From NCBI GenBank assembly GCA_025352985.1, contig JANXRL010000160.1:1-47730 (forward strand): a stretch of 47,730 nucleotides of DNA, given 5' to 3'. This stretch comes from Verrucomicrobiota bacterium (GTDB lineage Bacteria; Verrucomicrobiota; Verrucomicrobiia; Opitutales; Opitutaceae). How positions within the stretch are numbered: the first letter of the stretch is position 1; each line of letters begins with the position of its first letter. The notes beneath the pieces are model-generated. The model was given only the letters and a program-made list of their open reading frames with translations, ran no database searches and was not told the DNA's origin. A program made the translations under genes and the position numbers. Positions 15,225 through 36,449 of the stretch are shown in pieces.

Positions 15225-15545
15225 ATGATCGATGTAATCAAAAAAACCCTCCTCGCGGGCGTGGGCGCCGCCGTCATCACTAAGGAAAAAGTCGAAGACG
15301 CCCTCGGCGACTACGTCAAGCAAGGCAAAGTCAAGGCCGACGACGCCCGCATCATCGCCGAAAAAATCGCCGAACAGGGCCGCAAGGAATTCGACGAGAT
15401 GAGCCAGACGCTCGGCGCCAAAATCAAGGAGTTCACCCACCAGTCCAGCGCCGAGACCAAGGCCCACATCGCCACGCTTGAAGAACGCATCCGCGTCCTC
15501 GAAAGCAAACTCGCCCATCCCCCCACCCGCTCCGGCGAGCCGTGA
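15225..15545 (+). CDS. phasin-like coiled-coil protein
   Basis: 106 residues from the ATG at 15225 (MIDVIKKTLLAGVGAAVITK...). A short hydrophobic N-terminus leads into an amphipathic helix region (KEKVEDALGDYVKQGKVKAD...) and a C-terminal coiled coil (KAHIATLEERIRVLESKLAH). This matches small phasin-family/PhaF-type proteins, which coat polyhydroxyalkanoate granules or regulate related processes. Its stop overlaps the GTG start of ubiB (GTGA). In many bacteria this family sits next to ABC1-kinase genes, so a link to UbiB function is plausible. Confidence 0.72.
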   Translation: MIDVIKKTLLAGVGAAVITKEKVEDALGDYVKQGKVKADDARIIAEKIAEQGRKEFDEMSQTLGAKIKEFTHQSSAETKAHIATLEERIRVLESKLAHPPTRSGEP

Positions 15546-17194
15546 GACCATTCGACTTCCTAAGCAACGCCGTTCGCGCGAAGGAGATCTTCACGGTCCT
15601 CGCAAAGCACGGCTTTGCCAACCTGCTCAACCAGATCGACCCGCAGGGCGGCTGGTGGCAGCGCCTCGTCCCCCAGCCCAAGGAAAACCGCACGCTCTGG
15701 GAGCGCACGCGTCTGGCCCTGGAGGAACTTGGCCCGACCTTCGTGAAGGCCGGCCAGCTTATGAGCATGCGGCCCGACACCCTGCCGCACGCGCTGATCT
15801 ACGAACTGCGAAAACTGCAAAACTCCGTCCGCCCTCTGCCTTTCTCCGCGATGCACGCGGTGCTCATGGAGGAGCTCCCCGCCGACATCTCGCAGTCGTT
15901 CGCCGAGTTTAACGAGACGCCCATCGCCAGCGCCTCGCTTGCCCAAGTTTACTTTGCGAAGCTTCACGACGGCCGCGAGGTCGCCGTCAAGGTCCAGCGC
16001 CCCGATCTGCTTAAGACCGTCGAGGCCGACCTAGACCTGCTCACGTGGTTCGCCGCCCAGCTCCACCAACGCGTCGAAGCTCTCCAGCCCTACGACCTCC
16101 CCGCCGTCGTCGAAGAAGTTAAGTTAAACCTCCTCCGCGAACTCGATTTCCGGCACGAGGCGCGCAACCAGCAATATTTCAACGCGCTTAACCCGATCCC
16201 CGACCGGGTCTTCGCCCCCTACGTGGTCGATGAACTCTCCAGCGAACGCGTCCTGGTGATGGAACACATCACCGGCGTGACGGTCGATTCCGCCCGGCTT
16301 GCTCCCGCCGAGGCCAAGCGCATCGCCGCCAACGGAGGCACCTCGCTCATTCACCAGGTGCTCATTGCCGGCTTTTTCCACGCCGACCCCCACGCCGGCA
16401 ACGTCCTCGTCACGCCCGACGGCCGCCTCTGCTTCCTCGACTGGGGCATGGCGGGCAACCTCACGCGTCGGCTGCGTCTCGGCCTCGCCGATCTTTTTCT
16501 CGCCGCCGTCGATCAGGATGCCGAGCGCATCGTGCAGATCGCCGCCGAGCTAGGCAGCCCCAGCGGCCGCGCCGACCTGCGCGCCATGGAGCGCGACGTC
16601 ACCCTCGCCCTACGGGAGGATTTCAACCGCGCGATCAACCGCATCCAGCTCGGCCGGGCGATGCTCAAGCTCCTCTTCATCTTCGGCCAGAATGGCATCA
16701 ACATCACCCGCGACTATTCGCTCATGGCGAAAGCCGTGCTCTCGATCGAGGAAGTGGCCCGCAGCCTCGACCCCGAGTTCGACCTGCGCGACGTTGCCCG
16801 TCCCGTCCTGAAGGAATTGCAGCGCGAACGCACCGGCCCCCGCGCGATGGTGCGCGAGAGTCGCGCCTTCGTGCGTTCGATGCTCACCGGCGCGCGAGAG
16901 CTCCCCGGGGGGATTTTCCGCATCATTCGCCGCATTGAGCACGACGACCTCACCATTAAGTTCCAGCACAAGGGCCTTGAGGAACTCGACGACGCGCTCA
17001 AGGCCGCCGCCAACCGCATCACCCTCGGCGTGATCATCGGCTCGTTGATCGTGGGCTCCTCGCTCATTATCCACACCAACGTCGGCCCCCGTCTCTTCGG
17101 TTATCCCGCGCTCGGCATGGTCGGCTACATGCTCTCCGCCTTGTTCGGCTTTTACGTCATCTTCGACATCTTCCGCCACGGCCGACACAAATAG
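15542..17194 (+). CDS. ubiB: UbiB/AarF family (ABC1) atypical kinase
   Basis: 550 residues, GTG start overlapping the previous stop. The family hallmarks are present: the KxGQ motif in FVKAGQLMSMRPDTLP near residue 68, the Ala-rich loop ASASLAQVYFAKLHDGREVA followed by VAVKVQRP with the ATP-binding Lys, FHADPHAGNVLV near 278 with catalytic Asp/Asn, and LDWGMAG near 299 as the DFG equivalent. Two C-terminal membrane helices (about residues 495-545) match UbiB, which supports quinone biosynthesis at the inner membrane. The TAG stop shares its last base with a 25-base palindromic repeat. Confidence 0.9.
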   Translation: MRPFDFLSNAVRAKEIFTVLAKHGFANLLNQIDPQGGWWQRLVPQPKENRTLWERTRLALEELGPTFVKAGQLMSMRPDTLPHALIYELRKLQNSVRPLPFSAMHAVLMEELPADISQSFAEFNETPIASASLAQVYFAKLHDGREVAVKVQRPDLLKTVEADLDLLTWFAAQLHQRVEALQPYDLPAVVEEVKLNLLRELDFRHEARNQQYFNALNPIPDRVFAPYVVDELSSERVLVMEHITGVTVDSARLAPAEAKRIAANGGTSLIHQVLIAGFFHADPHAGNVLVTPDGRLCFLDWGMAGNLTRRLRLGLADLFLAAVDQDAERIVQIAAELGSPSGRADLRAMERDVTLALREDFNRAINRIQLGRAMLKLLFIFGQNGINITRDYSLMAKAVLSIEEVARSLDPEFDLRDVARPVLKELQRERTGPRAMVRESRAFVRSMLTGARELPGGIFRIIRRIEHDDLTIKFQHKGLEELDDALKAAANRITLGVIIGSLIVGSSLIIHTNVGPRLFGYPALGMVGYMLSALFGFYVIFDIFRHGRHK

Positions 17195-17218
17195 TTTGTC
17201 ACTTAATAAGTGACAAAC
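17194..17218. repeat. 25-base palindromic repeat, copy 1 (at ubiB stop)
   Basis: Arms GTTTGTCACTTA (17194-17205) and TAAGTGACAAAC (17207-17218) are perfect reverse complements around a single A. The first G is the last base of the ubiB TAG. Four bases later comes CGGGCTT (17223-17229), which also follows copy 2 at 35960-35984. No T-run follows, so it is not a normal terminator. Confidence 0.95.
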
Positions 17219-17268
17219 CCGCCGGGCTTGCTCCTCCACCCCCGGTGCGCATCGTTCGCCCCACGACC

Positions 17269-19857
<2,589 letters not shown>

Positions 19858-35467: not shown

Positions 35468-36449
35468 ATGCCGTCCGATTCATCCTGGAGTGATTGGAAA
35501 CCGGTTCCCGGCGCGCCGGCGTTAACGCCCGCGACGCTCGCCGAACTGATAGATGGCGGCCAAGCCTTCCGCTGGCAAACCCGGCCAGACCGCACCTGGC
35601 TCGGCATCTGGAGCGATTGCATCGTCAGCCTGCGGCTTGGCCCAACTGGCGTGCTCCACTGGTCCGCCCCCGCTCCGCTTACCGCCCGCGTTTCGACCGA
35701 GTTGCCCTCATATCTCTTCGGCCACGACACCCGCGCCGCGCTGGACACCCTCCCTTGGCGCAGCGACCCCCACCTCGCCCGCTGTCTCGCCGCCTTCCCC
35801 GGCCTCACCATTCTGCGCCAGCCCTTTGGCGAAACCCTCCTCGGCTTCCTATGCAGCGCGACCAAGCAAATCGTGCAGATCAAGCAGATGATCTCCCTCC
35901 TCGCCGAACGCCACGGCACCCCTCTTTCCCGTGAAAAAATCTCCCCGCCCCCCGATCCAGTTTGTCACTTAATAAGTGACAAACTGAATCGGGCTTTTGA
36001 TTCAAAAACCGGTGCGGTTCCACGTAACCGGCTCCCTGATTGGGAGGAATTGGCGGCCATCTCCGAGACCGACCTCCGCGCGTGCCTGCTCGGCTTTCGC
36101 GCCCGTTACATCCACCAGACCTCGCAATTCCCTCGCCGCGCACCCCGGCTGGCTTGAAGAAACCGAACGCCTCCCCTACGCCGCCGCCAAGGCCCGCCTC
36201 TGCGAACTCCCCGGCGTCGGCGAAAAAGTCGCCGACTGCGTCCTCCTCTTCGGCGCGGGAAAACTCGAAGCCTTCCCCGTGGACACATGGATCATCAAAG
36301 CCATGGCCCGCCGCTACGGCCTCGACGGCTGGACGCCCGCGCAGATCGCCCATTTCGGCCGCACCCACTTCGGCGCCCACGCCGGCCTCGCCCAGCAATA
36401 CCTCTTCGCTTACGAACGCGCCCAGCCGAAGATATCACCCCTTAGGTAA
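35468..36449 (+). pseudogene. 8-oxoguanine DNA glycosylase-like gene, with palindrome insertion and frameshift
   Basis: The OGG N-terminal domain is visible (GGQAFRWQTRPDRTWLGIW, FGETLLGFLCSATKQIVQIK). A 43-base palindrome region is then read in frame, giving PVCHLISDKLN, and homology resumes with ETDLRACLLGFRARYIHQTSQ. Near 36125 the frame is lost by one base (caattccctc); the original frame stops at 36157. The other frame continues with SLAAHPGWLEETERLPYAAA and the HhH-GPD motif LCELPGVGEKVADC, which contains the catalytic Lys, and AFPVDTW with the catalytic Asp. Without correction the product lacks the active site. Either the gene is inactivated or one base is a sequence error. It removes oxidised guanine when intact. 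Its end overlaps the convergent membrane gene by 8 bases. Confidence 0.82.
35951..35993. repeat. palindromic repeat copy 2, extended, inside the glycosylase gene
   Basis: The core at 35960-35984 is identical to copy 1 at 17194-17218. Here the arms extend to 21 bases with one mismatch (CCCGATCCA on the left, TGAATCGGG on the right). CGGGCTT at 35990-35996 also matches the flank of copy 1. A small second hairpin follows (GAATC...GATTC, 35986-36003). The element is read in frame as part of the glycosylase. Confidence 0.95.

Follow-up and report, generated by a model that had tools for sequence, protein, structure and literature searches.

MatP/matS, Noc, SlmA and EspR are site-specific chromosome-organising proteins, in which one protein is paired with dozens of dispersed palindromic sites, some of them in coding DNA. 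Other dispersed palindromes have been described as repeats, as excerpts of the following papers report. Rickettsia palindromic elements (RPEs) measure ~150 bp (PMC10969869), are read in frame within unrelated genes (PMC10969869, PMC3733652) and, in R. conorii, are said to end in CGTC (PMC3733652). GTAG-type repetitive extragenic palindromes (REPs) and their REP-associated tyrosine transposases (RAYTs), the REPtrons, include those of Opitutus terrae; the REPs are short, lie mainly downstream of coding regions, form dimers whose spacers mostly measure 20-100 bp, and occur within DNA-repair genes and often near the partner gene (PMC3733652). Autoregulated XRE/Cro-type regulators have a palindrome upstream of their own gene (PMC12565409). 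Here we describe a palindrome found in a 47,730-nt stretch of DNA from a Verrucomicrobiota bacterium of the Opitutaceae (contig JANXRL010000160.1; the whole stretch is called the window), where one copy lies in an 8-oxoguanine glycosylase gene and a second follows a UbiB-type gene. We think it likely that this palindrome is the predicted binding site of a dedicated small Cro/XRE-like helix-turn-helix (HTH) protein, which would bind cooperatively to dispersed sites and whose most likely role would be architectural or insulating.

Like RPEs, the palindromes described here are read in frame within unrelated genes, the glycosylase and others. They differ in being 41-bp symmetric units, in lacking enrichment of CGTC (48 of 227 sites have it close to an end, against 36% at random, and it is absent from the consensus), and in being mostly extragenic, tied to an HTH protein and often found at conserved positions. 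With GTAG REPs they share the short dispersed palindrome 3' of genes, the paired arrangement, the copy within a DNA-repair gene and the partner gene close to copies. In contrast to those REPs, GTAG lies near an end in only 6 of 227 sites (10% at random) and is absent from the consensus, and the set of sites changed in place; the bracketed gene encodes a small HTH protein, for which neither Pfam nor NCBIfam gave a transposase match, and not a tyrosine transposase (no genome-wide search for RAYT or tyrosine (HUH) transposases was made). The likeness to XRE/Cro-type regulators consists of a weak HTH similarity and the palindrome upstream of the gene; here, however, a second site usually follows the stop codon, and dozens of sites lie off promoters, some intragenic and some in phased pairs. 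Compared with MatP/matS, Noc, SlmA and EspR, several paralogous protein-palindrome pairs exist in one bacterial family, and no clear regional restriction of sites is shown. A tendency towards fewer sites near the terminus, suggested by local GC skew in genome G010, was not used: the contig order was inferred, and core-gene conservation could explain it. No description of an HTH-palindrome pairing of this kind was found at the level of titles and abstracts, with most subscription journals outside coverage. The preliminary description of this DNA, which likened the glycosylase copy to RPEs, knew of no palindrome family in the lineage; this needs correcting, since GTAG REPs inside genes have been published for Opitutus terrae (excerpts of PMC3733652), although the GTAG or CGTC tag is absent here.

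Co-occurrence of sites and HTH gene

The comparison covered 56 related genomes, 13 of them in the genus, including the window's own (G000; 2.88 Mb in 199 contigs), and 43 from the same family or order. The genome of the window contains 11 exact copies of the 25-nt perfect palindrome and 17 of its 23-nt core (25 with up to three mismatches; 0 in the reversed control), so that the dispersed family with some in-frame copies that had been proposed from the two window copies is real and the core does recur beyond them. The exact 23-nt core was found in six of the 56 genomes, all inside the genus (G000, 17; G001, 18; G004, 35; G005, 4; G008, 38; G009, 52), and in none of the other 43. At least 107 stretches of named genome contigs carry the palindrome; among the matches listed, all are titled Verrucomicrobiota or Verrucomicrobia, mostly Opitutaceae, Rariglobus or Opitutus. 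Viral contigs contained no exact copy.

Six of the 13 genus genomes (G000, G001, G004, G008, G009 and G010) possess a gene for an HTH protein of ~130 residues with the motif RPGxxTPLWN...LARxLxxPRQRVxDY...PDAERxxxxLxWL, located between a ykgJ-like CxxCxxCC gene and pdxH (Pfam names). In all six, palindrome copies (exact, hybrid or with one mismatch) flank the gene on both sides. These proteins match at 167-282 bits; no other family member in the 13 genomes exceeds 89 bits. Genomes with the gene hold 17-52 exact sites of their own variant each; the seven without it hold 0-4. In G002, G003, G005 and G012 the ykgJ-like gene adjoins pdxH, with neither HTH gene nor palindrome between them, and G011 has neither near pdxH. 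Absence from G007, where a contig end cuts the locus, and from G006, where only a pdxH paralogue (43%) was found, is by search alone.

Because two sites bracket the HTH gene, it is probably autoregulated. All six HTH-A genes have a palindrome upstream, and in most relatives it lies 12-75 nt before the called start. The starts are uncertain, since the upstream palindrome falls inside an open frame before some of these genes (L065 130-192, L098 and L074; CNLISDK, CHLLSDK and CHLISDK). A structure model of the protein features five helices, with pLDDT (predicted local distance difference test) values of ~90 for residues 71-100. The protein had no match in NCBIfam or PHROGs, none in plasmids, phages and viral contigs, and a single match by sequence in the PDB (E 0.9).

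At a threshold of E<=1e-3, the HTH family comprises 29 loci in 18 of the 56 genomes, with up to four members in one genome. Close to 26 of the 29 loci there is a palindrome, perfect or nearly so, that has the same TAWTA-like centre and arms differing between groups. A second variant, TGTCACCTAWTAGGTGACA, is dispersed in 11 of the 56 genomes (53 copies in G002), and in seven of the 11 (G000, G002, G004, G009, G011, G029 and G032) an HTH member is flanked by exactly this sequence. A degenerate pattern searched in eight chosen genomes gave 35 sites in G018, 27 in G032, 12 in G022, 10 in G029, 9 in G005, 8 in G016, 7 in G021 and 0 in G014; the reversed control gave 0, except for 1 in G032.

Palindrome arms and the HTH region covary. 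In Mantel tests, for which L144 was added and L189, L193 and L203, which lack a nearby palindrome, were dropped, half-site distance correlated with HTH-region distance among 27 members (r 0.59, 0/5000 permutations) and among 15 representatives (r 0.48, 0/5000), whereas for the rest of the protein the 15 representatives gave r 0.03 (2051/5000). One HTH dimer would read both arms of the 23-bp core. Co-occurrence, bracketing, covariation, and the switch and losses described below support the protein-site pairing well, and taken alone we regard it as very likely. What began as an odd palindrome in a repair gene becomes a predicted protein-site code open to test by simple binding assays. G030 carries family palindromes and no HTH member detected at E<=1e-3.

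Conserved positions and a switch of sites

Positions were compared for 227 sites collected from 12 genomes; these come from fetched loci and do not include every site of each genome. Defined by flanking protein homology with sites within 150 nt of each other, 44 orthologous-position clusters contain 137 of the 227 sites, and 40 clusters are left at 30 nt. Among 540 site pairs in homologous DNA, 300 agree within 150 nt. The second window copy has orthologous sites in G008, G009 and G010.

G010 has the HTH gene and zero exact TTTGTCAC palindromes; GTTTGTAACTTAATAAGTTACAAAC borders its gene at one end and a hybrid at the other. This genome contains at least 31 exact TTTGTAAC-type sites (51 with up to one mismatch), against 0-4 in the other 12 genus genomes, where all matches listed are one-mismatch hybrids. 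Both arms are changed (AA) in 39 of the 51 collected G010 sites and one arm (AC) in 12, with no CC; independent arms predict 39.7, 10.6 and 0.7. The other genomes pooled have CC 161, AC 15 and AA 0. G010 is represented in 31 of the 44 orthologous clusters, with both arms changed against an unchanged partner in 23, one arm in 6 and a hybrid partner in 2. At positions common to G010 and other genomes, sites therefore seem to have been altered in place, one arm at a time, and not replaced by copied units.

Apparent losses are also seen. In G005, whose pdxH is 93% identical to that of G000, the HTH gene is absent at an intact junction, and four exact sites remain together with three that have two or three mismatches, at least one of these being a symmetric variant. 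Three of the seven were checked (L288, L290, L292), and all lie where G000 or G008 has sites; a fourth clusters with a G009 site. G006, the sister of G000 in the glycosylase tree, has no HTH-family match and two degenerate relics only, one adjoining a gene that also has a site of X4 (L096) next to it and the other not placeable. Sites would persist while the HTH protein exists, change their arms with its specificity and be lost once the protein is lost. This single genus, in which some site sets are intact, one has switched almost completely and others are apparently lost, offers a natural test of how a DNA-binding protein co-evolves with its dozens of sites on the chromosome.

These data bear on the idea of a REP- or MITE-like (miniature inverted-repeat transposable element) mobile palindrome, spread by a RAYT-type or other transposase, whose in-frame copies would be tolerated in the loops of proteins, as they are in Rickettsia. 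The elements are dispersed, short, palindromic and often just 3' of genes, neighbours are often oppositely oriented, only some glycosylases carry the in-frame insert, and intragenic REPs and REP dimers are known in Opitutus (excerpts of PMC3733652). Yet the shared positions, the independent change of arms in place, the unrelated spacers in helical phase (see below), the missing GTAG/CGTC tag and a bracketed gene for an HTH protein instead of a transposase make such mobility an unlikely explanation. The RPE-like reading in the preliminary description holds for the in-frame intragenic palindromes themselves; a mobile insert is not supported as the best account of them, given the conserved positions, the arm-wise change in G010, the few sites in genomes without the HTH gene and the covariation. 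The rival that keeps most weight is a mobile palindrome family of old origin whose copies were later retained in place. The comparison also provides a way to separate mobile-repeat from binding-site accounts of intragenic palindromes.

Several findings weigh against a binding-site family served by its own HTH proteins, and some of them fit mobility. Outside any orthologous cluster are 90 of the 227 sites (in the fetched set), 240 of the 540 site pairs in homologous DNA disagree at the 150-nt limit (not all loci having been fetched), and the sharp edge of the 41-bp unit is also compatible with units formerly spread by copying. Three of the 29 HTH loci have no palindrome nearby. Among the 11 genomes with TGTCACCTA sites, the G021 member is flanked by a near match only, and no such member was found in G001, G010 and G030; G016 has its family palindromes without an HTH match at E<=1e-3. 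When the 27 members are all included, the remainder of the protein also correlates with the half-site (r 0.31, 2/5000), and related genomes are not independent, the statistics carrying no phylogenetic correction. The HTH assignment itself draws on a sub-threshold Pfam match (YdaS-type, E 0.007-0.04), on a model with an overall pLDDT of 76.8 built from 5 sequences, and on Foldseek matches whose best include repressor HTH proteins (P22 c2, 434 Cro) but have E >=2. Phasing is less sharp for the other palindrome types: 24 typed distances gave R 0.62 at 10.5 bp but a best period of 11.3, and collapsing them to 16 distances gave R 0.56 (p 0.008). Codon identity of 168/168 was set aside, as it is ascertained because the sites were found by pattern.

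Gene context and helical phasing

Gene context was assigned by a crude codon-usage caller, which called 79% of the window coding and missed the broken glycosylase with its copy. Of the 227 sites, 98 lie between tandem genes, 43 inside genes, 27 between convergent and 19 between divergent genes, 15 at gene ends and 19 near contig edges, and 6 are unclassified. The tandem, convergent and gene-end classes agree with the location mainly downstream of coding regions described for GTAG REPs. Of the 98 sites in tandem gaps, 57 are closer to the upstream stop; for gaps below 400 nt the figure is 45 of 67, with a median distance of 54 versus 101 nt. This is not the picture of promoter operators. An ordinary transcription-factor regulon, with the HTH protein as promoter regulator of adjacent genes, would accommodate the palindrome found ahead of most HTH genes, an arrangement also seen in autoregulated XRE proteins (excerpts of PMC12565409); it is nevertheless quite improbable given how few sites lie between divergent genes, how many are intragenic, convergent or tandem, and how the tandem sites lean towards the upstream stop.

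The same 3' bias in short gaps, and the long arms that could form hairpins, might point to an RNA-level element, such as a hairpin terminator or mRNA stabiliser at gene ends, whose link to the protein would be coincidental. We consider this very improbable. No T-run asymmetry was seen, with TTTT within 22 nt downstream of 16 of 98 tandem sites and AAAA upstream of 14 of 98, which led us to reject an intrinsic terminator; an Rfam scan of the window at gathering scores gave no match; and covariation with the HTH region argues against it.

Those intragenic sites that allowed a comparison lie in variable linkers, with one exception. The site at L275 ~3032 (G010) and L036 ~1500 (G000) stands in a conserved gene with no length difference between the two genomes and is read in another frame (FVTYYVT). 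Its centre is altered so that no stop codon arises, and the palindrome is largely retained.

Outside the 23-nt core, the pooled profile of the 227 sites reveals a weaker consensus, CCAAGCCAG, which stops 20 nt from the centre and thereby defines a palindromic unit of 41 bp. Neighbouring sites, often opposite in orientation, are helically phased. Among 29 pairs within 200 bp (partners with up to four mismatches), whose spacers are unrelated, the sites are 44-47, 53-57, 60, 66-67 or 77-78 bp apart and in one case 130 bp; periodicity is strongest at 10.6 bp, and the R of 0.74 at 10.5 bp was matched in 0/5000 jitters. Counting one pair per genome and distance gave the same picture (R 0.78, n=21), and all types on fetched loci gave R 0.74 with a best period of 10.9 (34 pairs, nine of which combine two types, in some cases differing by a single base). 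Such phasing would be the pattern expected from protein contacts on one DNA face, and pairs of dimers may touch on the same face at sites 44-78 bp apart. Weak phased partners of single sites numbered 24 at scores of 14-20 of 22, against 4.6 expected, several of them being known pairs; neither window copy had a phased partner (best score 10 of 22). The weak-partner scan also contains an unexplained further excess at offset 35. In G009, phased arrays mix types TGTCACCTA/TGTAACCTA and TGTCACTTA (L134 148-283 and L113 71-240) at distances of 56-57 and 90 bp, a hint of interaction between different HTH paralogues.

Phasing and covariation are indirect signs that dispersed sites may be occupied and bridged. 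Site positions and phasing lead us to prefer an architectural or insulating role, plausible but tentative when judged by itself. Each carrier genome has ~20-60 sites, mostly extragenic and often just after a stop codon, with a minority in variable protein loops, and the protein may bridge bound sites and limit read-through rather than control promoters. More speculatively, the family could represent a new class of small HTH proteins, up to four per genome, each with its own palindrome code and its own exclusive set of sites, through which the Opitutaceae chromosome would be organised or insulated; two codes would sometimes mix in phased arrays, sites would be kept even in coding genes, and a whole set could be rewritten when specificity changes.

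The glycosylase copy

The window palindrome in the glycosylase gene reads CCCGATCCAGTTTGTCACTTA-A-TAAGTGACAAACTGAATCGGG, with 21-nt arms and one mismatch around a perfect part of 12-nt arms plus centre. The extended arms and the identity with the copy after ubiB had been recognised at the outset, and both stand. The pattern with up to three mismatches arose in 0 of 100 shuffles. Translated in the glycosylase frame, the segment is PDPVCHLISDKLN. Coordinates are collected in the table.

Table. Positions of the palindromes and associated genes
Feature	Position	Strand	Remarks
Palindrome in glycosylase gene	35951..35993	.	23-nt core 35961-35983; perfect 25 nt 35960-35984; 41-bp unit 35952-35992, its length taken from the profile pooled over the 227 sites
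Second palindrome copy	17194..17218	.	Begins on the final base of the TAG stop codon of the ABC1/UbiB-type gene; same 25 nt as in glycosylase
ABC1 kinase-domain (UbiB-type) gene	15542..17194	+	Upstream of second copy
Peptidase family U32 gene	17245..19857	+	Downstream of second copy
Glycosylase open reading frame, N-terminal half and in-frame insert	35468..36157	+	Pfam OGG_N E 2.4e-4, below cut-off; orthologue L162 matches HhH-GPD above cut-off
Open reading frame with helix-hairpin-helix half of the same glycosylase, in another frame	35997..36449	+	Pfam HHH E 6.3e-4, below cut-off
Approximate point of frame change, window copy versus seven intact relatives	36112..36126	+	
HTH gene in own genome	G000 C140:8672-9028		Outside the window

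With the search used, a glycosylase orthologue was found in 8 of the 13 genus genomes, and four of the eight lack the segment. The spacing from LGFLC to LLGFRARYI is 246, 255, 291 and 222 nt in the carriers G000, G004, G008 and G009, and 159, 159, 165 and 171 nt in the non-carriers G005, G006, G010 and G011. All eight spacings are divisible by three, as is the excess of each carrier over G005/G006 (87, 96, 132 and 63 nt). Because these length differences are variable and lie inside variable linkers, a clean insertion unit is not measurable from them. The 23-nt core is the same in all four carriers, save for an A/T centre in G004, while the remaining insert has diverged. In the protein tree G006 stands beside G000, and G005 beside both; as the palindrome is not confined to one clade, several losses are the simplest account.

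Homology had been described as staying in one frame on both sides of the palindrome. This is correct locally, but the window copy shifts frame shortly after LLGFRARYIHQT, just 3' of the insert, so that its helix-hairpin-helix half (LPGVGEKVADC) falls in another frame; seven relatives are open throughout. The change is either a real frameshift or a base error, and intact copies exist in relatives.

As a minor observation on G002, 48 weak matches to the DnaA ATPase model, mostly with near-equal scores, accompany one real DnaA; we take them to be probably the IstB-type ATPase of an abundant insertion sequence.
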